NCBI GenBank assembly: GCA_009838735.1
Contig: VXQZ01000052.1
Location: forward strand, 75,332-139,331
Length of the DNA stretch: 64,000 nt
From: Chloroflexota bacterium
GTDB taxonomy: Bacteria > Chloroflexota > Dehalococcoidia > Bin125
Direction: 5' to 3'
This document shows, in pieces, positions 1,262-14,936 of the stretch. Each line of letters opens with the position of its first letter. Within the stretch, counting starts at the first letter, position 1. The notes beneath the pieces were generated by a model. It saw only the letters and a program-made list of their open reading frames with translations. It was not told the DNA's origin and did not search any database. Position numbers and translations under genes: made by a program.

Positions 1262-1271
1262 ACCGGGCAGA

Positions 1272-2540
1272 TCAGGAAGTGGCCGTGGGTTGAGTCTGGT
1301 CCGGGTCCGAGTGGGCGCCCTGTGATGGTCGGTTGCGGAATGTGAGCCAGAAGCTGAGCGCTGCGACGAGCAGCAACGCGGCTGCTCCGCCGTAGAGTCC
1401 CTGCAGCGCGGCCAGGCTGGCGAACGACAGCCCAATCAGGGGCCCGAGGGCGCTGCCCAGGTCGAGGAATGTGGCGTACGCGCTGAGCACGGCGTTGCGA
1501 CGGTCGGGCGGGGCGAGGTCGCCGGCGGTCGCGTGTAGGGTCACGGTGAGCGCGGTGGAGGCGACGAAGGCGGAGAGGACGGAGAGCAGCATCAACCAGA
1601 TCGAGTCGGTGGCTGCCAGGACGATCAGCCCGGCCGCGCCGGTCGCAAACCCGCCACTGATGACCAGGACCCGGCCGAAGCGATCGGAGAGGTAGCCAAA
1701 CAGCGGTGAGAGCGGCAACCACTGCGAGCCGAGCAGGATGCCGGTGGCGGTGGTGACGCCGAGGGCGACCCCGAAGACGGCGATCTGTTGGCCGAAGTGC
1801 GCGCTCAGGTAGAAGCCGAGGGAGGCGGTGACGAGGCCGGAGAAGACGAGGCCGGTGACCAGGATGGCCCCGCAGGTGACCAGCAAGCGGCGGTCTGCGA
1901 GCACGACGCGGAGGTCAGCTCGCTCTGAGCTTTCCGGCACCGCCTGTTCGGGCAGCGCCATACGCCGACTGGTCAGCACCCAGGTTGCGGCCGTCAGCGC
2001 CATGACGGCGGCAAAGAGGGTCAAGGTCAGACGGTGTCCGAACAGATCGGTGAGGGCGGCGCCGAGCAGCACGCCGCCGACCGAGCCCATCCGCACGATC
2101 GCGGAGTAGGAGCCCATCAGGAGCCCGCGATTGTGGTCGCCGGCCGCTGTCAGCACCGTCCAGAAGCCGCCGAGGCGGAGGGTGGACCAGCAGAATCCCC
2201 AGCCCATTCTCGCCGCCAGGAGCAGCGTGAATGCGGTTGACCAGCCGTAGCAGAGCGTGACCACGACGGACAGCACCAGGGCGGCGATGAACGGTCCGCG
2301 CTGGCCGAATCGCTGGAAGATCACCGCCGCTACCGAGTTGGTGACCAGCCGTACCAGTCGGTTGGCGGAGAGCAGGATGCCGACCGCGGGGAGCGAGAGC
2401 GCCCAGGCCTCGGGCTGCGAGGGCATCACGGCGTAGAGCATGGAGTCGCCGAGCAGCGTCGATGCAACCGCCAGCGCGACTGCGATCACCGGGAGCGGCA
2501 CGCCGCGCACGGCTCGCTTCTCGCCGGCGAGGTCGCTCAT
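1272..2540 (-). CDS. MFS transporter
   Basis: This 422-residue inner-membrane protein has about twelve hydrophobic segments in two halves joined by a charged loop near residues 195-215, typical of the major facilitator superfamily. The loop after TM2 ('FQRFGQRGPF') and the matching 'YLSDRFGRVL' in the second half are the MFS A-motif regions. It is likely a drug or metabolite exporter, but the substrate is unknown. The start is an ATG with only a weak ribosome-binding site. The upstream side is a gene-poor kilobase that contains a perfect inverted repeat about 77 bases before the start, a possible operator. Confidence 0.85.
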   Translation of the reverse strand: MSDLAGEKRAVRGVPLPVIAVALAVASTLLGDSMLYAVMPSQPEAWALSLPAVGILLSANRLVRLVTNSVAAVIFQRFGQRGPFIAALVLSVVVTLCYGWSTAFTLLLAARMGWGFCWSTLRLGGFWTVLTAAGDHNRGLLMGSYSAIVRMGSVGGVLLGAALTDLFGHRLTLTLFAAVMALTAATWVLTSRRMALPEQAVPESSERADLRVVLADRRLLVTCGAILVTGLVFSGLVTASLGFYLSAHFGQQIAVFGVALGVTTATGILLGSQWLPLSPLFGYLSDRFGRVLVISGGFATGAAGLIVLAATDSIWLMLLSVLSAFVASTALTVTLHATAGDLAPPDRRNAVLSAYATFLDLGSALGPLIGLSFASLAALQGLYGGAAALLLVAALSFWLTFRNRPSQGAHSDPDQTQPTATS

Positions 2541-3208
2541 CGCCGCAACGTATCAGCCACTGGCGCCATGAGCGGACCGATGCCACGGTCGCTTGGTCCA
2601 CCAAACTGGACAAAATCGAGAACCTTCAAGTTGAGGTTCTCGCTGGAACTATGATGCGTTGCCGATAGGCGCTCGCGCGAACTGCGCGTTAGCTCAAACC
2701 GAATACGTTCGGCGGGCTGTCTGAGCGGCTTCATCCTGGTCGGCGGCGAAGATCGCCTCAATGGTGTCGACAATCACGGCGGTGGGATGGAATCTGCCAA
2801 TAGCGTGCATCGAAATGCAGGCGATGAGGACCTTCGACAGACCAGCAGCGTCGGAGGTTGGGAGCTACGCCAGGAGTTCACGGAATCTGAAGTGTGCCGC
2901 AGAGGCCATGCGAGGCCATGTTTCGCATTGATGCGGTCGATTCGCGCGCGTTGGCTGTCCACGTCAACAAGCTGCGCGATAATTCGCGATCTCAGGAACG
3001 ATTTTGCCGAGCGCGTGCCTCTGGCTGTGTCGACGGCGGCTGCTCACCGCTGTTGTGCGACTCGTTGCTGCGCTGTGACGGCGCCGGCTCGATCCCTGGA
3101 ATGGCGCTGAAGCTGACGCGAAGCTCACTGGAGATGAGATTCTGATCCCAGATGTCAGATTCGAACCAACAGTGGACCATCACGCGCCATCGTGATTGCG
3201 AGAGCCGC
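2541..3208. other. Gene-poor stretch
   Basis: No convincing gene was found here. The open frames are short, overlap one another on both strands, lack ribosome-binding sites and have compositions unlike neighbouring proteins. Apart from the inverted repeat at 2617-2642, I see no repeat or RNA-like structure. It may be a decayed gene or the regulatory region of the MFS gene. Confidence 0.5.
2617..2642. repeat. Perfect inverted repeat, possible operator
   Basis: The arms CGAGAACCT (2617-2625) and AGGTTCTCG (2634-2642) are perfect 9-base complements around an 8-base spacer. The site lies about 77 bases upstream of the minus-strand MFS start at 2540. There is no T-run beside it, so a repressor site is more likely than a terminator. 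This is inference from symmetry and position only. Confidence 0.4.
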
Positions 3209-3403
3209 TCAAGACGAGGCAGCGTCCACGGTGTTGGGCCAGACGCCGAGCGAGATTCTGATCTCGTTGAGCGACATGCCGGACGTGATCGCCGCGGCAG
3301 CCTGGAGCGCATCGCCCTCGCTGGCGTCGCTCTGACCGCGAATCTCCTCGGATAGTTGCATGGTCATGCGTAGTCGCAGATTGGCTGGGGTCGGGGAGGC
3401 CAT
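3209..3403 (-). CDS. Small hypothetical protein (64 aa)
   Basis: This short frame has an AAAGGA ribosome-binding sequence seven bases before its ATG, the best such site in the otherwise gene-poor 2.5-3.5 kb stretch. The product is soluble with no membrane segment. It is fairly acidic and alanine-rich in the middle ('DALQAAAAITSGMSLNEI') and could fold as two or three short helices. I do not recognise a family. It lies between two MFS genes on the same strand and could instead be the remnant of a longer gene. Confidence 0.35.
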   Translation of the reverse strand: MASPTPANLRLRMTMQLSEEIRGQSDASEGDALQAAAAITSGMSLNEIRISLGVWPNTVDAASS

Positions 3404-3533
3404 AGACGGTCCTTTCAGGTATCAGTCGGCAGGCCAAATCATAAGTACGCTCTCAGCTGTCGGAAAAGAGCATTTTGATAGTGCGACGGTTAGCGGATCG
3501 ACCTCCGATCAATGGTCTCTTGGGCGGGCCGGG

Positions 3534-4844
3534 CTAGCGATCCCCTTCGCTCGCGCGCATCCAGTCGGCTGCGGTGAGATCCGTGTACATGCGCCGCCGC
3601 CAGAGCCACCAGCGGACGCGCGGCATCGAGAGGGCCAGCAAGGAGGCGCCGAGCAGGCAGGCGGCCATCGTCAACAGACCTCCCTGCGGCCGGAGCGATT
3701 CGACCAAGGCACCGGCAATCAGGGCGCCGATCAGAATCGTGCCCTGGACCAGGTTCATGAGCGTGAGCGCTTGTCCCCGCATCTCTTCGGGGGCGTGGGC
3801 GAGCAGGGCGAGGTTGGCCACGGTGGCCATGTTGTAGACGCACGCGGTGGCGAAGAAGACGCAGACCGCAACAACTGCCAGGTGTGGCGCCAGGGCGATT
3901 CCGATCAGGGAAGCGCCGCCGGTCGCGATCAGCCCGACCATGAGCAGGTTCGGGGAACGGATCTCCTTCAGCGAAGCTAGCCAGACTGCGCCCAGCGTCG
4001 CCCCGAGGCCACCGACGGCCGCCAGGTAGCCGACCCAGGAGCGGTGCTGGCCCAGTTCGTCGATCACGACCAGCGGCATGAGCACCGCTTCGTAGGGCTG
4101 AAGGAACATGTACGACATCGCCGAGATGACCAGCACCGCGATGGGCCAGCGCGTGTCGATTGCCCATCGCGCTCCGGCCGTGATCTGGCCAACGATGGAG
4201 CGCACTTCCTCCTTGCCATCTGGCTTCGGATGTTGCCGAGTCTGAATCATCCCTCCAAGCAGCGCGGCCAACGAGCTGAACGCAGTCATCAGACCGAACA
4301 TCCAGGTGAAGTCGGCGATGCTGAGCAGCAGGCCGGCGAGCAGCGCGCCACCGATTTTGACCGATGTCTGTCCCGTCTGCGACAGTGCCGTGGCCGAACG
4401 CAGGTGGGCTGACTCCACAATCACTGGCAGCAAAGCGCGTCGCGCGAGATTGAAGAACACGAAGCCGATGCCAGACAGGGCCGAGAGCGCGATCACCTGC
4501 CAGCTTTGGGCTTGGTCGACGATCAGCAAAACGAAGAGCACGCCGGATGCAACCGCGTTGGCCAGAAACGAGCCGATCCATACTCGCTGATAGGGATAGC
4601 GATCGACGATCACCCCGGCGAACGGCGAGAGCAACAGATTGGGCGCCATCCAGGCCGCGAGCACCGCGCCCAGCAGGACGGCGGAGCCAGTCAACTCGAC
4701 GATCAGTACGGCTCGGGCGACCAACTCCAGCGCCAGAGCGGCCGAGCGGACAAAGGTCGCTGTCCAGAGGACGCGGAAGTCGCGGTAGCTGAACGCCGAA
4801 AAGGTCTCCGGACTAAACAAAGGGCGCTCCTCGACGCTCGCCAC
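3534..4844 (-). CDS. MFS transporter, EntS-like (MFS_3)
   Basis: This 436-residue transporter begins with 'FSAFSYRDFRVLWTATFV', the N-terminal signature of the MFS_3/EntS branch that includes siderophore and drug exporters. 'FAGVIVDRYPYQRV' is the A-motif loop. About twelve hydrophobic segments follow, ending in a basic tail ('RVRWWLWRRRMY'). The start is a GTG directly after an in-frame stop, with no obvious ribosome-binding site. It is unlike the MFS protein at 1272-2540, so this is not a recent duplication. It is divergent from the histidine kinase gene across 284 bases, which may hold promoters for both. Confidence 0.85.
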   Translation of the reverse strand: MASVEERPLFSPETFSAFSYRDFRVLWTATFVRSAALALELVARAVLIVELTGSAVLLGAVLAAWMAPNLLLSPFAGVIVDRYPYQRVWIGSFLANAVASGVLFVLLIVDQAQSWQVIALSALSGIGFVFFNLARRALLPVIVESAHLRSATALSQTGQTSVKIGGALLAGLLLSIADFTWMFGLMTAFSSLAALLGGMIQTRQHPKPDGKEEVRSIVGQITAGARWAIDTRWPIAVLVISAMSYMFLQPYEAVLMPLVVIDELGQHRSWVGYLAAVGGLGATLGAVWLASLKEIRSPNLLMVGLIATGGASLIGIALAPHLAVVAVCVFFATACVYNMATVANLALLAHAPEEMRGQALTLMNLVQGTILIGALIAGALVESLRPQGGLLTMAACLLGASLLALSMPRVRWWLWRRRMYTDLTAADWMRASEGDR

Positions 4845-5128
4845 CTAACGGTTCCGCGCATTGCGAAAGTCGGCACCGATTGCGCGACAACGAACGAGTC
4901 CAAAAGCAAGAGAGTTGGACACAGACTCGCGGATCTCGCGACGGCGGCGTGACGTCCTCCTACTCCGTCGTTGAGATACAGCATTTCACTGCGCGCGTGG
5001 GTTGCGATAGAAGAAGCCGACCGCAGTGTGCTTTCACTTTTGCCTGCTTCACCTGTAGCGATGTGCCCGCTTGACATTGGTACGGGCCGCTCTCGTTGGT
5101 GCTGGCGATCCGACGTACATTCGCAGTA

Positions 5129-6442
5129 ATGACGGACGAGCAGCTTGAGGCAATGCGACACGACGCATATTGGTCGAGTCTGGCTCGTGCATTCCATGGC
5201 GCGCAGGAACGTCGTCCGCACGTGCTACGGGCCGTCGCGTACGCCGTGCGGAGAAGCCTGACACCGGGCAGCCTGAGCGAGCCGGGTGTTGTCCTATATG
5301 CGACCCGGATCTCGCTCTGGGGCCGCTGGTTCATCTGGTTGGTGGTCGTCTTTCTGACTGCGTATCGGCCGAGCTTCTGGTATCCGGGCATGGCCGAAGC
5401 GCTCGTCCTGCCAATCCTGCAACTGTTGGTCAACGGCCTGGTCCACTATCGGCTACGCAAGCAACGACCGATCACCCAGCGCCTGTTGCTGTTGCTGAGC
5501 GCCAGCGACGTGGCTCAGATCACGTTTGCGGTCCTCATCCTCGGCGGATACTCGAGCTTTGCTTTCGTCGCCTTCTACCCCGCGCTGGGCCTCTTCGCCG
5601 TGCTGTTCCCATCGCTCTCGGCCACGCTCGGTTGGACATCCGTGGCTGCGTTGCTCTACATCGCAGCCTGCCTCTGGAGCGGCGCAGGTCTGAGCCTCGA
5701 TCGCGGTCAGGAGATGGTCCTGGTCGGTCGTGTTGCCATGATGTACGTCGTTGCGGTTGGCATCGGCATGATTGTGCGCTTCGAGCGGCTCCGCTGGCAG
5801 TCGGCGCTCTCACGCGAGCAGCAGTTGCTCAACGATCGGATTGAGCTCTCCCAGCAGATCCACGACACGACCGCTCAGACGGCGTCAATGATCAATCTCG
5901 GCCTTCACCGCGCGAAAGCGCTGGCCGCCGAATCCCAACCGGAACTGCGGTCCGCGCTCGACGCGACCGCCGAGCTGACCAGGTCGGCGATGTGGGAGAT
6001 GCGCGGTCCGATCGATGCCGGGCACATAGTCGAAGGGCGGGAGTTGGGACGGGTCCTGTGGTCGCACTGCGCGACGTTCGAACGGATCACCGGTATCCCC
6101 GCCGTGCTGACGCAGTCGGGAACGGAGCCGGATCTACCGACCGCAGTGCGCTCCCAGCTCTTCGCCATCGCGCATAACGCACTGACCAACGCCTTCCTCC
6201 ACGGCGATCCGGGCCGGGTTGATGTCGGCTTGAGCTTCACCAACGATCGGATTCGACTGAGCGTCGCCGATGACGGAATCGGGCTGCCGGACGACTATGC
6301 CAGGCGCGGCCGCGGCATGCGCGGCATGGTGGATGATGCCGAGGACATGGGCGGCACGCTGAAGGTCGACGGCGCGGGCAGCGGGGGCGGAACCACTATC
6401 ACCTGTGTCGTGCCTCTTGAGGGGCGTGAGGGGGGAATCTGA
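5129..6442 (+). CDS. Membrane sensor histidine kinase, NarL/DegS type
   Basis: This is the sensor of a two-component system. From the chosen ATG it has 437 residues. A TTG eleven codons earlier (5096) is an alternative. About five or six membrane segments (roughly residues 60-220) form the input part, with no large outside loop, so the signal may be sensed in the membrane. A coiled linker leads to the phospho-acceptor helix 'LSQQIHDTTAQTA' with H245, typical of HisKA_3 kinases. The ATP-binding domain has the N box ('AIAHNALTNAFLHG') and G1 box ('VADDGIGLP'). Its stop is one base before the response regulator start, so the two are co-translated. Downstream lie two exported repeat proteins, which are possible targets. 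Confidence 0.92.
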   Translation: MTDEQLEAMRHDAYWSSLARAFHGAQERRPHVLRAVAYAVRRSLTPGSLSEPGVVLYATRISLWGRWFIWLVVVFLTAYRPSFWYPGMAEALVLPILQLLVNGLVHYRLRKQRPITQRLLLLLSASDVAQITFAVLILGGYSSFAFVAFYPALGLFAVLFPSLSATLGWTSVAALLYIAACLWSGAGLSLDRGQEMVLVGRVAMMYVVAVGIGMIVRFERLRWQSALSREQQLLNDRIELSQQIHDTTAQTASMINLGLHRAKALAAESQPELRSALDATAELTRSAMWEMRGPIDAGHIVEGRELGRVLWSHCATFERITGIPAVLTQSGTEPDLPTAVRSQLFAIAHNALTNAFLHGDPGRVDVGLSFTNDRIRLSVADDGIGLPDDYARRGRGMRGMVDDAEDMGGTLKVDGAGSGGGTTITCVVPLEGREGGI

Positions 6443-6443
6443 G

Positions 6444-7127
6444 ATGCCAACTCCCGAACCGATCACCGTGCTCGTTGTCGATGACCACCCGATCATGCGT
6501 CAGGGCATTTGCGACCTGTTGAATGGCTCAGGACGATTCTCTGTCGTCGGCGAAGCTGCAGATGGGGAGGAAGCGCTGCGCACGGCCGCGGAACTCAAGC
6601 CTCAGGTCGTGGTCATGGATGTGATCATGCCGCGCACGGATGGAATCGAGGCCTGCCGCGAACTCATGGCGCTGTTGCCTGATACCCGCGTCATGATGTT
6701 GACCGCTGCCGCGCAGGAGGATGCAGTGATCGACGCCATCGCGGCGGGTGCCACCGGTTTTGTCGAGAAGTACGCGCCGCCGGAGGAGTTCATCACTGCC
6801 GTGTCGGATGTGGCCGCGGGACGCCTGAGAGTGCCCGACGAGGCTGTGAAGCGCGTGTTCGCGATGCTGAGGGGGGAACGACCATTGGAGTCCATCAAGC
6901 CCCTGGAACGACTGACGGCGATTGAGCGGGAGACGCTGACCTACTTCGCCAGCGGAACGCCATATGGCGAGATCGCCAGGCAGCGAGGCATCAGCGTCGT
7001 CACGGTCCGTAACACGCTCTATCGCATCCAGGACAAGCTAGGCATCGAGACCAAGCCGGAACTCGTCATCTGGGCCGTTCGCAATGGTCTGGTCGACGAC
7101 ATCGTGGTCGGCATTGACGAGCAGTGA
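6444..7127 (+). CDS. NarL/FixJ response regulator
   Basis: This 227-residue DNA-binding regulator is paired with the upstream kinase. The receiver domain (about 1-125) has the acidic pair D13/D14, the phospho-acceptor D59 in 'VVVMDVIMP', T87 and K109. The C-terminal LuxR-type helix-turn-helix covers about 155-215 ('LTYFASGTPYGEIARQRG'). The ATG at 6444 was chosen over the upstream in-frame start at 6405 because the receiver begins right after it and a GAGGGGGG ribosome-binding site sits 8-15 bases before it. Two copies of TTCGTCTGA, 14 bases apart, lie just after the gene (7137-7145 and 7151-7159). They are within the leader of the next gene and could be binding sites. Confidence 0.93.
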   Translation: MPTPEPITVLVVDDHPIMRQGICDLLNGSGRFSVVGEAADGEEALRTAAELKPQVVVMDVIMPRTDGIEACRELMALLPDTRVMMLTAAAQEDAVIDAIAAGATGFVEKYAPPEEFITAVSDVAAGRLRVPDEAVKRVFAMLRGERPLESIKPLERLTAIERETLTYFASGTPYGEIARQRGISVVTVRNTLYRIQDKLGIETKPELVIWAVRNGLVDDIVVGIDEQ

Positions 7128-7330
7128 TTCAACTCATTCGTCTGAGGAGCTTCGTCTGAACAGTCTGTCTCAGCCCGGAAGCCCTGATGGCGAAGAGCTG
7201 ACGCTCGACGAAGAGACCAAGCGCTACACCGCGCCAGTACTAAGCGAAAGTCCAAGTTTGCACTTCTGATCTGTTGCCGCGCCAATGCTCGAAGTGAGAA
7301 TTCGACGCAGGCGTCCTCGGGAGGATCAGA

Positions 7331-10300
7331 ATGCGTATTCACTTCAAGAAGGCTCGGCTCCTTGAGAGTCGAACTGCCATCTGTGCTGTTGTTCTAATTG
7401 CGGCGGTTATCACCGTGGTGGCGCAGGTCCTGAGCGGCCAGGACGCCCGCAGCCAGGAGCCACGCGGTGACGGCGCTGCCGAGGTGCGCATTGCGGCGCA
7501 ACGTCTGGAAGACGGCGAGGTTCGATTCGGCCTACGGGTGCGCGACGGTAGCGGCGGATGGGTGGAGCCGATCACGCCTCGGGCGCATCGATTCGATCCG
7601 GCCACGGTCTCCATCGGGCGTTGGCTGGTCAGCTCTCCGCTGACGCTGGAAGTCGACGGAGCCGCACGCGGCCGACTCGCGCGCAGCGACCAGTTCGAGC
7701 CATTCGCTGCAGGCGAGACAACGCTGGTTAGCGGGCTGGAAGGATGGTACGGCGACGCGCGCTATTCCGCCTTTCACGATGCGGGAGGCGATCTCGTTAC
7801 GAGCGCCTCGTTGTACAGCGCAACAGTCGGGACGCCGGACGGCGAGCTGCGGACCACGATCACCTGTCAGAACGGCGAGATCTCGGTCAGTATCGGCGGC
7901 CTGCCGGGCCACCTGAGTGACGGTGCGCTCACGCAACGGACCTTAGTGGCGTGGAGCGTGGACCATGGGACGCAGCACAGAGAGCATCGCGCGGTGACAT
8001 CGAGGGCGAGCGGACCCGAGCTCGTCGAGAGCACCGAGAGTCGACTGCCCCGAGCGCTGCTCGGTGGCGGCTCGCAGCTCGCCTTGGTGATCGGCACGAC
8101 TCCGGAGCTCACGACCAACATCGACCTCGACGCGCTGCGTGCGCTGCCTGTCTACGACAACCTCCGTCACTGCGGCAGCGACGGCGCACGATCCGGACGC
8201 ACCGAACTGCGCATCCGCGCACAGGTCCGCGCCGACGAGCGCATCGAGTTCGCCGTCCAACAACGGATCGCCGGCGGCTGGAGCGACAACATCCTGCCGC
8301 GAGCGCGTGTCATCGCGGCCTTCGGAGAGGCAACCGACTGGCTGTCCTCGACCCCGGTCTCGGTGCGGGTCGAGTTGAATCCTCCGCAGGGGATCATTCT
8401 GCCCGACACCGTTGTACGACAGGCCCCAAAGCCGATCACGCCCGTGATGCGCAACGGATATCGCACCGCCTCGCTCGCCTATGGCGTCTACACCCAAGAC
8501 GTCGAGGGCTACTACCCGACCAAGCTCAACTCCGTGGTGGTTGCCTTCAGCGCCCAGGGTCTGCAACTGGTGGTCGGATGCTTGGGTGACGAACGTCGGG
8601 TGTCGCTAAGTGGCGCGCCGTCCGACGCGACGGGAGACTTGACCCTGACGATCGACGACAGGCAGTTGATCGCTGGATGGAGCGTCAGCCGCGACGAAGA
8701 CCGGGTCTCGCTGTCGCCAGTCGATAGCGAACGAACCATCCAACAGTTGCGCGAGGCTCAATCGCTCTCCATCAAGGTTGGATCGGACAGCGCAGCTCCG
8801 GTCTCGTTCGATCTGGTCGACCTGTTCGCGACGCCAGTTCAGGCGAACATTGACCAGTGCGGAAACTATGTGGACCCGGAATGGCAGCCGGTGATCAACA
8901 GACTCTTCGTCGAAAACGATCTCGGTGAGTACTACAGAGTTTCGTATCCGGAGGACAATGACTACCTGCGATCCAGCCAGGTCCGCGTCATTGCGATTGT
9001 GGACACGAGGCCGCCGGGTGTCGACCCGATCAATCTGGTCATGACCTGCAGTTCACAGGGGTTGACATTTCATGTCTGGGGTCTGCCGGAGCTGGGCCAA
9101 ACTCACACACTCAGCCTGCATTTGGGCGACGGCGACTGGTACGGCGAGCCCGTGAGCTTCTACTCGTATGAAGACGGCTCTACGATCGCCGAGTTCAGAA
9201 TCGCTCTCGACCGCCTCAAGCAGGACAAGATGTTGCAGTTTGTACTTGTACTCGATCGCCCCGTCCGGGGGTCATTCGACCTCACCAACCTGCTCGGCAC
9301 GCCGATCCAGACCAACTTCGACAACTGCGGTCGGGACTACTGGCCGCCGGAACGCACTTACGTGCCTGTGGTCGCTGCGGAACAGCAGAGTTCGCGGCAA
9401 TTGAGGTATCGGGCGCATGAGAACGAAGACGGGACAATCTCCACTAGCGTGCAGCTGACGGCGATAGCAGTGCTCGAGGATGAACGCGCAGTCTTACTGG
9501 GGGCCCACTGCTTGAGTAGCTCTGCGCTGCAGTTGGAACTCGCCGTACCCCAGATCCTGGAGCCGGGCGAGGTCGAAGTCACTCTGACCATTGATGACCG
9601 GCCTGCCCACACGAACACCTGGAATACTGCGACATGGAGAGCGAGCGGGTTCCTGCACCCGCCTTCGAACGCGCAGCTGATGGCCCAACTGCGCAGGGCG
9701 TCGGTGTTGACTGTGGAAGTACCTGAGCTGCTCACGGTACCGCTCATCTTTCAGCTGAGCGGAATGTTCGAGACGCCCGTGCAAGGCAACCTCGACGAAT
9801 GCGGCTTCTACAAGCCTGGTGAGGTTCGGACGCTGCCGCTCCCGCTGAATCTGTACGAGGTACAAGCCGCGTACGAGACAGACCGCGATCTGGGCGTGGT
9901 CCGATTTTGGGAGCGAATCCCACGCAGGACCATGCCCGAGACGAGCACGCTCGAACAACACCATCGTGAGGATGTCTTGTCGATTGGACTCGCGATGTTC
10001 TGCGGGAGTTACGGCGCCAGGCTGTCGATCTACGGTGCGGGCGCCCACGTGCTGTTAGGGGATCACGTGGAGGTGGAGTGGAGCGCAGACGGAGAGACCA
10101 CGCAGAGGGATAGCTGGAACGTGGAACGAAGCGGTGCCTCCGTCACAGTCAGTCCGCCGCGGGCGCGAGCGATCATCGCGATGTGGCGCCAGGCCTCAGA
10201 CCTCGAGCTTCAACTGGTTGGCGCCAGTTCGGACATCCACCGCTTCGATCTCGAAGCGATGTTCGACATACCGGTCATCGACACGTTCGACGCGTGCCTC

Positions 10301-10831
10301 GCCATGCAGATTCCGAGCCAGTCACCGCCCGTCACGGGTATTCCATCGACGACCAGCGGCGAGCTTACGTTCGCAGCAGGTTTCTTGGGCGGATCATCAT
10401 GGCTCATCAGCCACCTCCGCATTCGTGACCGCGGGGCAGCACCCGTGCGGGCTGACGAGCAGGACACCCGTTCATCGCTGAACATCGGATGCGGAAGGGC
10501 CGGTCTCGATCTCTGGATGTCAGATCTTGACGCAGCGGAATCGACGTTGATTTACGGCGACTCGGTGGCTGTCTCCTGGACCATCGACGGGCGCTCTCGG
10601 TCCGATACCTGGAACGCGTGGACGCAATCGCTCAGTTACGGCATTTCCCCTGTAGACGACCGGGCCTTCTACGAGGCGCTCAAGGGCGCGCGCACGCTGA
10701 CGATCCGGGTCGAATCGGATCCGCCGATCAGCAAGACCTACGAGCTGGCGAAGCACGACTTCTGGGGCACGCCGGTCCAGCCGAATCTCGATGCTTGTGG
10801 CGACGAGCCTGCATCGATTCAGTCTCGATAA
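7331..10831 (+). CDS. Large exported protein with six cysteine-paired repeats
   Basis: This 1166-residue protein has a basic N-terminus and one hydrophobic segment (about 15-33), giving export or a membrane anchor. Six units follow. Each has a central strand carrying one Cys (C179, C417, C573, C727, C891, C1054) and ends in a conserved block of the form 'TPVQxNxDxCG' carrying a second Cys (C281, C510, C666, C824, C989, C1156). The two are 93-102 residues apart, and apart from C18 in the membrane segment there are no other cysteines, so six disulfides are likely. Units 1 and 2 also begin with a roughly 55-residue module ('EVRIAAQRLEDG', 'ELRIRAQVRADE') that recurs in the protein at 11380-13266. 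A GGGAGG site supports the ATG. The family is unknown to me. It is probably cell-surface, in ligand binding or adhesion. Confidence 0.85.
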   Translation: MRIHFKKARLLESRTAICAVVLIAAVITVVAQVLSGQDARSQEPRGDGAAEVRIAAQRLEDGEVRFGLRVRDGSGGWVEPITPRAHRFDPATVSIGRWLVSSPLTLEVDGAARGRLARSDQFEPFAAGETTLVSGLEGWYGDARYSAFHDAGGDLVTSASLYSATVGTPDGELRTTITCQNGEISVSIGGLPGHLSDGALTQRTLVAWSVDHGTQHREHRAVTSRASGPELVESTESRLPRALLGGGSQLALVIGTTPELTTNIDLDALRALPVYDNLRHCGSDGARSGRTELRIRAQVRADERIEFAVQQRIAGGWSDNILPRARVIAAFGEATDWLSSTPVSVRVELNPPQGIILPDTVVRQAPKPITPVMRNGYRTASLAYGVYTQDVEGYYPTKLNSVVVAFSAQGLQLVVGCLGDERRVSLSGAPSDATGDLTLTIDDRQLIAGWSVSRDEDRVSLSPVDSERTIQQLREAQSLSIKVGSDSAAPVSFDLVDLFATPVQANIDQCGNYVDPEWQPVINRLFVENDLGEYYRVSYPEDNDYLRSSQVRVIAIVDTRPPGVDPINLVMTCSSQGLTFHVWGLPELGQTHTLSLHLGDGDWYGEPVSFYSYEDGSTIAEFRIALDRLKQDKMLQFVLVLDRPVRGSFDLTNLLGTPIQTNFDNCGRDYWPPERTYVPVVAAEQQSSRQLRYRAHENEDGTISTSVQLTAIAVLEDERAVLLGAHCLSSSALQLELAVPQILEPGEVEVTLTIDDRPAHTNTWNTATWRASGFLHPPSNAQLMAQLRRASVLTVEVPELLTVPLIFQLSGMFETPVQGNLDECGFYKPGEVRTLPLPLNLYEVQAAYETDRDLGVVRFWERIPRRTMPETSTLEQHHREDVLSIGLAMFCGSYGARLSIYGAGAHVLLGDHVEVEWSADGETTQRDSWNVERSGASVTVSPPRARAIIAMWRQASDLELQLVGASSDIHRFDLEAMFDIPVIDTFDACLAMQIPSQSPPVTGIPSTTSGELTFAAGFLGGSSWLISHLRIRDRGAAPVRADEQDTRSSLNIGCGRAGLDLWMSDLDAAESTLIYGDSVAVSWTIDGRSRSDTWNAWTQSLSYGISPVDDRAFYEALKGARTLTIRVESDPPISKTYELAKHDFWGTPVQPNLDACGDEPASIQSR

Positions 10832-10896
10832 GGCGCGAGCGCATGCGAATGAGGATGTGCAGCTAGACGAAGTCGAGTTGGCGGTAGCGACCGACC

Positions 10897-10971
10897 TGGT
10901 CCCCCCGGAAGGATTCGAACCTCCGCGCGCGGTTTAGGAAACCGGTGCTCTATCCCCTGAGCTACGGGGGG
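10897..10971 (-). tRNA. tRNA-Arg (anticodon CCT)
   Basis: The minus strand folds as a complete cloverleaf. The 7-base acceptor CCCCCCG/CGGGGGG is closed by A73 and an encoded CCA. The D arm has the GCTC/GAGC stem. The anticodon loop TTCCTAA gives anticodon CCT, reading AGG (Arg). The T arm has the TTCGAAT loop. The base pair at the top of the anticodon stem (27-43) is a C-C mismatch. It lies between the two repeat-protein genes on the opposite strand. Confidence 0.95.
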
Positions 10972-11064
10972 TGATTCTGAGTGTATGGCGAGTGGATCGT
11001 TGACCGACGTCCCGGGTTTCCTATTCTGGACACACAGTTCCTCGCGAGTCTCGGAGTCAGTTTC

Positions 11065-11316
11065 ATGCCGCTGTACGAGTATTACTGCCGCCCTTGCAAT
11101 GAGAAGTTCACCAAGCTGCGACCGATGAGCGCCGCGGCGGAGCCGTATGAGTGCCATTGCGGTCATATCGCGCAAAAAGTGCTGACGACAGCGATGGTGA
11201 CGGTTGCCGGGCAGTTCTCGGACATGGAGGCGGCGGAAGCGATGCCGACGGGCGGCGGTTGCGCCTGTGGCCGCGGCTCCTGCGGCTGCGGCGGCGGGGC
11301 CGGCGCACTGAACTAA
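11065..11316 (+). CDS. FmdB-family zinc ribbon protein
   Basis: This 83-residue protein begins 'MPLYEYYCRPCNEKFTKL', the hallmark of the FmdB/CxxC_CxxC_SSSS putative regulatory family. One Cys pair is in 'CRPC' and the next is 'CHCG', forming a zinc ribbon. The C-terminus is a Gly/Cys-rich tail ('GGGCACGRGSCGCGGG') with further metal-binding potential. The ATG at 11065 was preferred over an upstream in-frame start at 10981 because the family always starts at this methionine and a GGAG lies before it. The cellular role is not established for the family. Confidence 0.88.
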   Translation: MPLYEYYCRPCNEKFTKLRPMSAAAEPYECHCGHIAQKVLTTAMVTVAGQFSDMEAAEAMPTGGGCACGRGSCGCGGGAGALN

Positions 11317-11379
11317 GAACGAAGCTCGATTCGCTCCGACGTATTCGATCCTGTTCCCATGTTGTAAGGGGTTTGCCGA

Positions 11380-13266
11380 ATGATGAATCAACGTGTTCGT
11401 GTGCTTAGCGTGGGAACCTTGGTGCTCGGGATTGCCGTCGCTGCAATCTTCTTGAGCGGCGTCATTCCGCTTGATTTCGTGGCTAGTGAACATCACGGCG
11501 AGAGCGAGATCGATGTGCGCATTCAGGCGCGGCAGACCCAGAGCGGGCGAGTCGAAGTCCGCGCGCAATCAAGCGTCGCGGGCAGTGAGTGGACGACCCA
11601 CACTCCGCAGGCCCGGCTCCTGCCGAGTGAAGCTGAGCCCGGACGCTGGTACTCCAGCAGTTCGTTCGCAGTCAGCGTTGCTGTTCCGGTTCCCGATGTC
11701 ACCGATCCAGCCGGATACACCAAGTGGTTCGTCGAACAGGCGATCGCGCGATACGAACGCGACGGACGCGAGGCAATGCTCGCCTACTACAACTCCCCGC
11801 AGAGCATCGACGGCCAGTGGTACATGTTCATCATGGACGAGGACGATGTCGTCGTTGCACACCAGAATCAAGACTTGATCGGTGTGCCGGGTGTGGATGT
11901 CAACGGACCAGACGGTTATCCAGCCGGCCGGATGGTGATCGAGGTCGCCAGCATTGAAGGCTCCTGGGTCGACTACCAGTTTGACAACCTGGCTACAGGC
12001 CGGGCCGAAATAAAGCACTCCTGGATTGTGCGCCACGACGGCCTGATCTTCGGCTCCGGCTGGTACGAGTCTGCGCCGTCGAAGACGGACGACCCGGGGG
12101 GCTACACGAAGTCGTTCGTCGCACGCGCGATTGAGCTGTACGACGTGCTCGGCCGGGACGCATTGATTGAGTACTACAACACTGCCGAGAGCGTCGACGG
12201 ACCCTGGTATGTCTTCGTGATCGGCGAGGACGGGCGCAACGTCGCCCACCAGGTTCGCGACTTCATTGGTCTGGTGGCCGCCGAGGTTGACATTGACGGC
12301 TACCCGGCCGGCGCGATGGTTGTCGCCGTGGCCAGCGAAGAAGGCGCGTGGGTCGATTACTGGTACACCAACCTGGAGACCAATCGCTCGGAGACCAAGC
12401 ACTCCTGGGTGGTCAAGCACGACGGCCTAATCATCGGCTCCGGTTGGTACGAGGAAGGGCCCTCCAAAGAGCATGCGCCGGGCGCCTACACCCAGTCGTA
12501 CGTGCAGCGGGCGCTGGAGCTGTACCGGGTGTTGGGCCGCGATGCCACGTTCGAGTACTACAACTCCCAGGAAAGCATCGACGGCGAATGGTACCTCTTC
12601 ATCCACAACGTGGACGGTACCCGCCTGGTTAACGGCGCCCGTGCCGACCGGCCGGGCTGGCTGGGCAGCAACCTGCACGGCACCGGCGTCGACGTGACGG
12701 GATACGACTACACCGCCGACACGCTGTCGATCGAGACCAGCGGCTGGATCTCATACGTCTTCCCCAATCCCGACGCAGAATTGCAGTACCAGCGCAAACA
12801 CAGCTGGATCGTGCGCCAGGGAGACCTGCTCTTCGGCTCGGGCTGGTACGACCGCAACTACAACCTCGCCGAGCAGGATCCTGCCGGCTACGCCCGGGCT
12901 CTGGTGCAAGATGCAATCGACCGCTACGACGCCGATGGCCGCGAAGCGGTGATTGAGTATCACAACTCCCCACAGAGCGTCGATGGCGAGTGGTACGTGA
13001 GCATCTACGAACTCGACGGCACTCGGCTCGCGCATCCCTACTTGCCGCTCGGAGAGAACGTGCTCGATGGAGGCCCCGATGTCACGGGCCGACACTTCCG
13101 CGAGGAGTTCATTGCGATCGAGGATCGCGGTTGGGTGAGCTACGTGTTCCTCAATCCCGACAGCGGCGAGCAGGAACAGAAGCACACCTGGGTCGTGCGG
13201 CATGGGGACTTGTTCTTCGCTGCAGGCTGGTACGAGGCAGGCGCCTACGAGGCTCCAGAATCCTGA
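11380..13266 (+). CDS. Exported protein with four tandem Cache-like domains
   Basis: This 628-residue protein has an N-terminal hydrophobic signal or anchor segment (about 8-30). Next comes a module at about 44-103 ('EIDVRIQARQTQSG' to 'GRWYSSSSFAVSV') shared with the six-repeat protein at 7331-10831. Four copies of a roughly 120-residue domain follow, at about 109-230, 238-358, 367-490 and 500-619. Each runs from a helix ('GYTKWFVEQAI'), 'YYNSPQSIDGQWY' and a 'VAHQ' strand to a 'KHSWIVRHDGLIFGSGWYE' end. This is the pattern of single Cache extracellular ligand-binding domains. No kinase, methyl-accepting or cyclase output domain is present. It could bind small ligands at the surface and pass them to another protein. 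Copies 3 and 4 are the most diverged. Confidence 0.85.
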   Translation: MMNQRVRVLSVGTLVLGIAVAAIFLSGVIPLDFVASEHHGESEIDVRIQARQTQSGRVEVRAQSSVAGSEWTTHTPQARLLPSEAEPGRWYSSSSFAVSVAVPVPDVTDPAGYTKWFVEQAIARYERDGREAMLAYYNSPQSIDGQWYMFIMDEDDVVVAHQNQDLIGVPGVDVNGPDGYPAGRMVIEVASIEGSWVDYQFDNLATGRAEIKHSWIVRHDGLIFGSGWYESAPSKTDDPGGYTKSFVARAIELYDVLGRDALIEYYNTAESVDGPWYVFVIGEDGRNVAHQVRDFIGLVAAEVDIDGYPAGAMVVAVASEEGAWVDYWYTNLETNRSETKHSWVVKHDGLIIGSGWYEEGPSKEHAPGAYTQSYVQRALELYRVLGRDATFEYYNSQESIDGEWYLFIHNVDGTRLVNGARADRPGWLGSNLHGTGVDVTGYDYTADTLSIETSGWISYVFPNPDAELQYQRKHSWIVRQGDLLFGSGWYDRNYNLAEQDPAGYARALVQDAIDRYDADGREAVIEYHNSPQSVDGEWYVSIYELDGTRLAHPYLPLGENVLDGGPDVTGRHFREEFIAIEDRGWVSYVFLNPDSGEQEQKHTWVVRHGDLFFAAGWYEAGAYEAPES

Positions 13267-13979
13267 GCCGGAGCAAACCAACTACTTCGTCTCCGACGCC
13301 ATAGGTAGATTGCTGATCCAGCGCCAGCTGCGACAACGAACGCCAGCGTCACGCCGCCGATCAGCAGCGTCGTGTCAAAGAAGAACCGCTGGGGAAACAG
13401 CTGGATCAGCCCGTCGCGTGAGCTGAGTTGCCACAGATCGTTGGTGAAGAAGAGCAGGTGAAACTGCCGGAACGCGGAGTCGAATCCGCTGATCCCGATG
13501 ATGCCCAGCACCACAACCAGCAGCGCGACCACTCCGCAGGCGGACAGTGTCGATCTGGCCAGCGCCGACGGCGCTTCTTGGCGTCGCCGCCAAACGATTA
13601 CAGCGACGAAGGCGATGATGAATCCGAGAGCGGCCCAGCCCGCGTCGAATGTGCGAGCCATCAACCGCTTCACGTCGATCATGTGCAGGATCTCGCGCTC
13701 CGTGTAGAAGGGCTCTCCTGCCACATCGACGTCCAGCCGCTCTTCGTCATTGGTCAGATAGTCGCGAGTCTCCTCTGCGACCCGCAGTACTTCCGCCTGT
13801 GACAGACCGGTCCTACCAGTAGCGTCATAACGCTCGAAGCCACGCTCCCACCAGGACGCCGACGTTGTCGCGTATCGCACCGAGAAGGCGACCGGCAGGG
13901 TGAAGAGAGCGATGGCCAATGCAACTTCGGCCAGCATGCGGCAGAGACGGAGCGTGGCGTGTTGAGCGATAGGATTCAT
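13245..13979 (-). CDS. DUF1461/TIGR01906 integral membrane protein
   Basis: This 244-residue membrane protein has four to five hydrophobic segments. The segment 'GISGFDSAFRQFHLLFFTND' followed by 'LIQLFPQRFFFDT' is the characteristic core of the DUF1461 (TIGR01906) family, whose function is unknown. The start is the methionine in 'MNPIAQHATLRL'. The frame stays open much farther upstream, but that part overlaps the mazG gene antisense and is a shadow. The gene is divergent from mazG with 36 bases between starts, and its end overlaps the Cache protein gene by 22 bases. Confidence 0.8.
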   Translation of the reverse strand: MNPIAQHATLRLCRMLAEVALAIALFTLPVAFSVRYATTSASWWERGFERYDATGRTGLSQAEVLRVAEETRDYLTNDEERLDVDVAGEPFYTEREILHMIDVKRLMARTFDAGWAALGFIIAFVAVIVWRRRQEAPSALARSTLSACGVVALLVVVLGIIGISGFDSAFRQFHLLFFTNDLWQLSSRDGLIQLFPQRFFFDTTLLIGGVTLAFVVAAGAGSAIYLWRRRRSSWFAPAQDSGAS

Positions 13980-14015
13980 GTGTCGAGTAGAGCGTACTGA
14001 GCGCTGGAGTCTCCG

Positions 14016-14936
14016 ATGATGAAGCAACTGTCCGGAATCATCGAGGCCGCCGGACTGCAGGACGAATCGACCCTGGTCGTTGCCCGATCCTCGAGCGTGC
14101 CGCCGGTCACGACGGGCGTGCTGCTGCTGCTGATCGATGACGAGTCCGGCCTGCCCAACGCGTTGCGCCATTATCCGCGGGGGCACGGGCTGCGGATCGT
14201 GGACGACAACGACGCCATTAGCCGGACCACCGTCGATGAAGTCGTGGGCGGCGTCTGCCCGGGCATCACCGCGGCGATCCTTGACCCGATCGAGCTGTCC
14301 GATGTCAGGGACGCGCCCGACGGTGTTCGAGGGGTGATGGATCGTCTGCGCGATCCGATCGATGGCTGTCCCTGGGACAACGCCCAGACCCACGAGAGCT
14401 TGCGGCCTCACCTCCTGGAGGAGACGTATGAAGTGCTTGAGGCCATTGCTTCAGGCGACTCGACGGAACTCTGCGAGGAGCTGGGCGATTTGATGATGCA
14501 GGTCGTGCTCCACGCCAAGCTGGCGGAGCAGGCGGGCGACTTCACGCTTGACGACGTGTCGGAGGGCATTCGAGCCAAACTGGTGCGGCGGCATCCGCAT
14601 GTCTTCGGCGACGGCACGGCGGACACGCCGAAGCTGGTCGAGGGCGCCTGGGAACGGCTCAAGGCGCGCGAACGTCCGAATCGAGAATCCGTCCTGGACG
14701 GCGTCCCCAGGGCGCTGCCGGCTCTGGCCCGGGCCCAGTCGATCCTCGGTCGTGCGGAACGCAACGGATATGGCCGCAAGTCAAGCAAGTCGAAGGAGCT
14801 CGGTGAGCGCTTGCTCAATCTGGTGCAGGAGGCGCGGGACGCCGACGTGGCGGCGGAAGACGTACTCCGCGACGCCCTGGATGCGTTCGAACGGGGCATC
14901 CGCCAACAGGAAGCGCAGCAGCGTCCGGAGTCCTAG
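14016..14936 (+). CDS. mazG: MazG nucleoside triphosphate pyrophosphohydrolase
   Basis: The protein hydrolyses (d)NTPs to monophosphate and pyrophosphate and probably cleans the nucleotide pool. The core (about 105-200) has 'CPWDNAQTHESLRPHLLEE' followed by 'EELGDLMMQVVLHA', the Mg-binding EEXXE/EXXD motifs of MazG, and then 'RRHPHVFGD'. The N-terminal 100 residues look like a short, degenerate remnant of the tetrapyrrole-methylase-like domain found fused to MazG in some bacteria. A second alpha-helical half follows the core. Length is 306 residues. The start ATG-ATG is preceded by GGAG. The end overlaps the helicase gene by 4 bases. Confidence 0.92.
   Translation: MMKQLSGIIEAAGLQDESTLVVARSSSVPPVTTGVLLLLIDDESGLPNALRHYPRGHGLRIVDDNDAISRTTVDEVVGGVCPGITAAILDPIELSDVRDAPDGVRGVMDRLRDPIDGCPWDNAQTHESLRPHLLEETYEVLEAIASGDSTELCEELGDLMMQVVLHAKLAEQAGDFTLDDVSEGIRAKLVRRHPHVFGDGTADTPKLVEGAWERLKARERPNRESVLDGVPRALPALARAQSILGRAERNGYGRKSSKSKELGERLLNLVQEARDADVAAEDVLRDALDAFERGIRQQEAQQRPES

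Follow-up and report, generated by a model that had tools for sequence, protein, structure and literature searches.

A putative four-gene cassette joining a membrane-embedded two-component pair to an exporter and a six-repeat IalB-like protein in a genus of Chloroflexota

Introduction

NarL/LuxR-type two-component systems with membrane-embedded, LiaS/DesK-like kinases, which we take to be the systems that the pair described here resembles, pair a receiver-GerE regulator with a HisKA_3 kinase that has several membrane stretches but lacks an outside domain. Their partners are an ABC transporter or a desaturase, whereas the pair analysed here, in a 64,000-nucleotide stretch (the window) of contig VXQZ01000052.1 from a Chloroflexota bacterium, is accompanied by an MFS_3-type exporter and by REP, an exported protein with six repeated domains whose predicted fold is like that of IalB. 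A sequence-only reading of this region had proposed that the kinase, the regulator, REP and a four-Cache protein further downstream form one sensory or surface system. Comparing the source genome with 60 relatives (61 genomes in all), we find that the first part of this proposal stands and the last does not, and that the unit has another member on its opposite side.

IalB (PF06776, structure 3dtd), which is located in the envelope or secreted, is needed when Bartonella invades erythrocytes, though how it acts there is not known (PMC6299047). It is a single small domain of about 20 kDa, whereas REP carries six in tandem together with two copies of a 57-residue module, occurs in Chloroflexota, shares 15-18% identity with IalB and is encoded next to a two-component pair. 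Passages of PMC8163846 and PMC6306507 describe cadherin, Fn3, ankyrin and similar proteins, with which sponge symbionts adhere or equip their surface, as enriched and laterally exchanged among these bacteria; like REP, these are exported proteins of a repeat or adhesion type, and an Fn3 protein is found among the paralogous kinase loci described below, but neither a six-IalB-domain protein nor the 57-residue module appears in those passages. Several of these uncultured Chloroflexota are sponge symbionts: bin125 originates from the sponge Aplysina aerophoba (PMC5649159), and the codes RHO, IRC, APA and COS of the metagenome-assembled genomes (MAGs) appear to fit the sponges of PMC8163846.

Results

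A kinase, a regulator, an exporter and REP are inherited together

The cassette and its intergenic regions are laid out as follows (positions in the window).

3534-4844, minus strand: MFS_3-type exporter of the major facilitator superfamily (MFS), divergent from the kinase and a constant cassette member (PF05977 102 bits, above the cut-off of 27)
4845-5128: intergenic region with divergent promoters; candidate regulator site near 5004 (shared 10-mer, weak evidence)
5129-6442, plus strand: sensor histidine kinase (open reading frame (ORF) open from 5096; HisKA_3 4e-8, HATPase_c 1.7e-10)
6444-7127, plus strand: NarL-type response regulator, probable ATG at 6444 (ORF 6405-7127; Response_reg 8.6e-28, GerE 1.4e-7)
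7128-7330: intergenic stretch upstream of REP, with a candidate regulator site at 7267 (shared 10-mer, weak evidence)
7331-10831, plus strand: REP, 1166 residues, exported; signal or membrane stretch, module, repeat 1, module, repeats 2-6

A kinase orthologue (66-83% identity) was present in nine of the 60 relatives, all of the same genus; with the source genome this makes ten congeners that have the kinase, against five without. REP lay directly downstream of the kinase-regulator pair in all ten, although in G009 it is broken. The five kinase-free congeners also had no full-length REP, and the link between the pair and REP is thus strongly supported. The exporter is the fourth member: a close orthologue (84-94% identity) stands beside the kinase in eight of the nine relatives, whereas in kinase-free genomes there are only exporter paralogues of at most 66%, as far as searched. 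Eight of the cassettes were recovered again in named contigs, and the genes flanking the four-gene cassette differ from genome to genome. Mean identities across the cassette are 89% for the exporter, 78% for the regulator, 74% for the kinase and 59% for REP, which is thus the fastest-changing of the four.

The two-component pair is of the NarL type, with a HisKA_3 domain carrying the catalytic histidine, an HATPase_c domain and a receiver-GerE regulator gene adjoining the kinase gene in 10/10 genomes. His245 and the N-, G1- and G2-box residues of the kinase are invariant among the ten orthologues. Its topology comprises about six clustered membrane stretches followed by HisKA_3 and HATPase_c, and an outside sensor domain was not found; given this arrangement, what the kinase perceives is probably something that happens at the membrane or within it. 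In five genomes, paralogous pairs of this kinase-regulator subfamily adjoin other large exported proteins (loci L109, L110, L112, L113 and L115), the neighbours being proteins of 1422-1453 residues, an Fn3 protein and a protein of 656-727 residues, a supporting pattern that favours the cassette reading.

The cassette appears to have moved within the genus

As a reference we used a tree of six genes of the FmdB block (described below), on which groupings were evaluated with the approximately unbiased (AU) test. This tree, whose rows for G007 and G008 are short, implies at least three changes between presence and absence of the cassette and rejects a single clade of the four genomes that lack it (p 9.5e-7). 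A deep split common to the kinase-regulator tree and the REP tree is rejected by the FmdB-block tree (p 7e-5), whose pairs are in turn rejected by those two trees (p at most 1.6e-4); these p-values are optimistic, since the groups were named once quick trees had been inspected. The exporter tree, built with FastTree only, has the same main split. Given the repeated changes in presence and the conflict between the two sets of trees, the cassette is most simply read as having been gained, lost and exchanged inside the genus as one piece.

The repeats of REP have an IalB-like predicted fold

The six repeats of REP, all on the plus strand, are the following.

7853-8176, plus strand: repeat 1 (residues 175-282)
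8567-8863, plus strand: repeat 2 (residues 413-511)
9035-9331, plus strand: repeat 3 (residues 569-667)
9497-9805, plus strand: repeat 4 (residues 723-825; modelled with its leading segment)
9989-10297, plus strand: repeat 5 (residues 887-989)
10478-10801, plus strand: repeat 6 (residues 1050-1157)

The whole protein matches no Pfam family, and a search of the PDB by sequence with the REP repeats or the 57-residue module gave nothing significant. Repeat 4 was modelled with AlphaFold from 44 rows, with a predicted local distance difference test (pLDDT) score of 91.1 and a predicted template modelling (TM) score of 0.85. In a Foldseek comparison with the PDB, the top and sole strong matches of this model were five chains of 3dtd, Bartonella henselae IalB (probability 1.00, E 3e-3 to 1.6e-2, TM 0.54-0.58), and one match in the viral library likewise carries an IalB annotation. 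The predicted fold of the repeat is thus IalB-like. The PF06776 profile is matched neither by whole REP nor by single repeats or their consensus, and we therefore call the repeats IalB-like by fold and not members of the family; the role of IalB in Bartonella invasion is not transferred to REP. The only Pfam likeness of the repeat consensus, in both cases below the cut-off, is to VasI/TagO, a type VI secretion accessory (PF11319, E 0.03), and DUF1176 (PF06674, E 0.14). Membership of VasI/TagO was rejected, the consensus scoring 14.4 bits against a cut-off of 26.5 in a genome without a VasI match, and no type VI secretion genes were seen around the cassette.

Each repeat contains one cysteine pair, and all 12 repeat cysteines are invariant among nine full-length copies of REP, with no additional cysteine in the repeats; one disulfide per domain is therefore predicted, as for an exported protein. 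Within REP the IalB-like domains are 46-64% identical between genomes and the 57-residue modules 79-84%. Shorter REP paralogues of about 655 residues, with modules and three IalB-like repeats, occur at L121, L122, L125 and L126, with no kinase pair alongside in the fetched stretches.

Intergenic regions

With up to two mismatches allowed, each of the two intergenic regions contains the 10-mer TGATCTATCG in 9/9 genomes; shuffled sequences reach no more than 6/9. This weakly hints at common control of the two regions. The gap of about 170-330 bp upstream of REP is conserved and contains conserved blocks, and this suggests that REP has its own promoter.

The Cache protein belongs to another block

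Three features following REP lie outside the cassette.

10897-10971, minus strand: tRNA-Arg (CCT), at the border of the block that received the cassette
11065-11316, plus strand: FmdB-family zinc-ribbon protein, always encoded next to the Cache gene (TIGR02605 48 bits, cut-off 31; synteny)
11380-13266, plus strand: exported four-Cache protein of 628 residues, part of the FmdB block (dCache_2 1.3e-17, sCache_2 4e-17)

The kinase, the regulator, REP and the Cache gene are real genes on the plus strand at the positions first reported, and the six repeats, the four Cache domains and the shared N-terminal module were borne out, as was, by our domain search, the lack of a recognisable enzyme domain in REP and the Cache protein. 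Absent from the earlier description were the tRNA-Arg and FmdB-family genes that separate REP from the Cache gene, the divergent exporter and the spread of the module through the genome. In the relatives the kinase pair always came with REP, as the proposed joint system would have it, and REP and the Cache gene were consistently apart, an outcome that by the earlier reading's own criterion refutes the Cache link. The Cache gene is found away from the cassette and unlinked to the kinase in 12/12 relatives, always within a constant block of FmdB, Cache, Lit, MazG, UvrD and further genes beside tRNA-Arg; where one contig holds both (G004 and G006) they are 325-337 kb apart, and four genomes without the kinase and REP retain it (G002, G007, G008 and G013). 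Membership of the Cache protein in the system is thus ruled out by synteny: it is an exported protein that binds ligands and is unrelated to the system, and in the source genome the cassette was inserted into its block.

The insertion site itself can be seen in relatives. The amidase gene abuts tRNA-Arg directly in G007, G008 and G010, i.e. the site is empty; in the source genome the gap between amidase and tRNA holds the cassette and a second MFS gene, and in G004 that second MFS gene alone. Since the site is empty or otherwise filled in relatives, the adjacency of REP and the Cache gene reflects an insertion specific to the source genome. Integration into tRNA-Arg with duplication of the tRNA end was rejected, as there is no direct repeat of at least 12 bp on the cassette side, and we therefore speak only of insertion beside the tRNA. 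The stretch from the amidase to tRNA-Arg (1262-10896) is an insertion hotspot in the genus, with other DNA there in further genomes. The Cache protein differs in length between species, with about two to four Cache domains in 371-628 residues (L069-L080), the source genome having the longest. The Lit ORF as listed (13245-14411, minus strand) overlaps MazG; its true start probably lies around residue 144 (about 13982), and matches of relatives to this ORF also break near residue 144.

A 57-residue module shared by many exported proteins

Copies of the module in the two large proteins are located as follows.

7481-7654, plus strand: first copy in REP (residues 51-108)
8204-8371, plus strand: second copy in REP (residues 292-347)
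11512-11679: single copy in the Cache protein

The consensus of the module is EVRIAARRLEDGRVEFALQQR..W.ERILPRARFLPA....GRWLVSSPV. The source genome contains 44 copies in about 31 open frames encoding exported-type proteins, so the module, which had been taken as a tie between REP and the Cache protein, cannot support a joint function of the two. Its partners, read from the sequences of individually fetched loci, include periplasmic binding proteins, Cache domains, IalB-like repeats, and propeller-like and other exported domains. No Pfam family matched the module, and its structural model (pLDDT 86) matched no fold in the PDB by Foldseek (best E 0.96).

In a sample of 301 genomes across the phylum, matches were restricted to the genus itself and one distant genome. 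A scan of GTDB found the module in MAGs of other lineages and phyla, with 41, 37, 29, 17 and 2 copies (L137-L145 among the loci), where it accompanies RCC1-like or leucine-rich repeat (LRR)-like repeats. Misbinning is an unlikely source of these matches because four of the five genomes hold 17-41 copies; the Gemmatimonadetes genome, with just 2, could be a misbin.

Discussion

The reading that we favour, and hold to be somewhat probable, is that of a four-gene cassette in which a membrane-sensing kinase and its regulator control the exporter and a surface protein as output. What the kinase detects is probably an event at the membrane or inside it, perhaps a compound handled by the exporter, and it would phosphorylate the regulator, which probably activates both the divergent exporter/kinase promoter and the promoter of REP. 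REP is probably anchored at or secreted to the cell surface, with the modules near the membrane and the variable IalB-like domains outside, where it may bind, or shield against, a molecule from a host, a neighbour or a competitor.

Several observations weigh against this reading. Four further paralogous kinase pairs (L108, L111, L114 and L116) adjoin metabolic genes, and the export of REP is deduced from its hydrophobic N-terminus and cysteine pairs. In G009 the parts are separated, the REP next to the kinase being truncated (L093 2617-3300) and a full-length, more distant REP lying on another contig (L094 7018-10440). The shared 10-mer comes from related sequences, and scans for sigma-70 promoters and terminators gave no signal above shuffles or chance. 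The FmdB-block tree describes one locus, which may itself have moved and may differ from the species tree.

Three other explanations of the locus have to be considered. That the Cache protein binds a ligand outside, with REP as its surface partner and the kinase responding, all in one sensory complex, would agree with the two genes lying on the same strand 0.5 kb apart in the source genome and with both proteins being exported and carrying the module; we now regard it as highly improbable, given that the Cache gene lies elsewhere in every relative and is kept in cassette-free genomes, that two genes intervene and that the module is so widespread. REP might instead stand not at the end of the pathway but at its start, as an accessory sensor, which binds a ligand outside and relays the signal to the membrane kinase. 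This would fit a kinase that itself lacks an outside domain and a REP that is always immediately downstream, but the better conserved partner is the exporter, REP diverges faster than the other three, which is not how a protein constrained by touching the kinase would behave, and the conserved gap and blocks before REP suggest a separate promoter; we consider this role unlikely.

The four genes could also be the cargo of mobile DNA, travelling together by chance and without a joint function, and the differing surroundings of the cassette, its horizontal exchange and the persistence of its parts apart in G009 fit this idea. Neither a transposase nor an integrase was recognised among the neighbouring ORFs, no tRNA-end repeat of at least 12 bp was found, the borders fall exactly at the four genes in eight of the nine relatives while the flanks vary, and the genes have long been co-inherited with catalytic residues intact, so that chance association seems quite unlikely to us. 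We retain the regulated cassette as the preferred explanation.

With regard to the 57-residue module, we tentatively raise the possibility, which we think may well not hold, that it marks an unnamed class of surface proteins common to unrelated sponge symbionts and spread between phyla in the same host. It would be a small beta module, present in one to three copies and mostly right behind the export signal, that tethers diverse outer domains (IalB-like arrays, periplasmic binding proteins, Cache, RCC1, LRR and others) to the envelope.

What had been a guess about neighbouring genes becomes a unit with corrected borders, comprising an exporter, a kinase, a regulator and a surface protein. In REP this unit brings together six domains whose fold is associated, in Bartonella, with entry into host cells, and it does so in a bacterial group with several sponge-dwelling members. 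The module may matter more, as a handle on how the surfaces of sponge symbionts are built and exchanged; if our proposal for it is true, the cassette would be a regulated, exchangeable member of a module-bearing surface repertoire.

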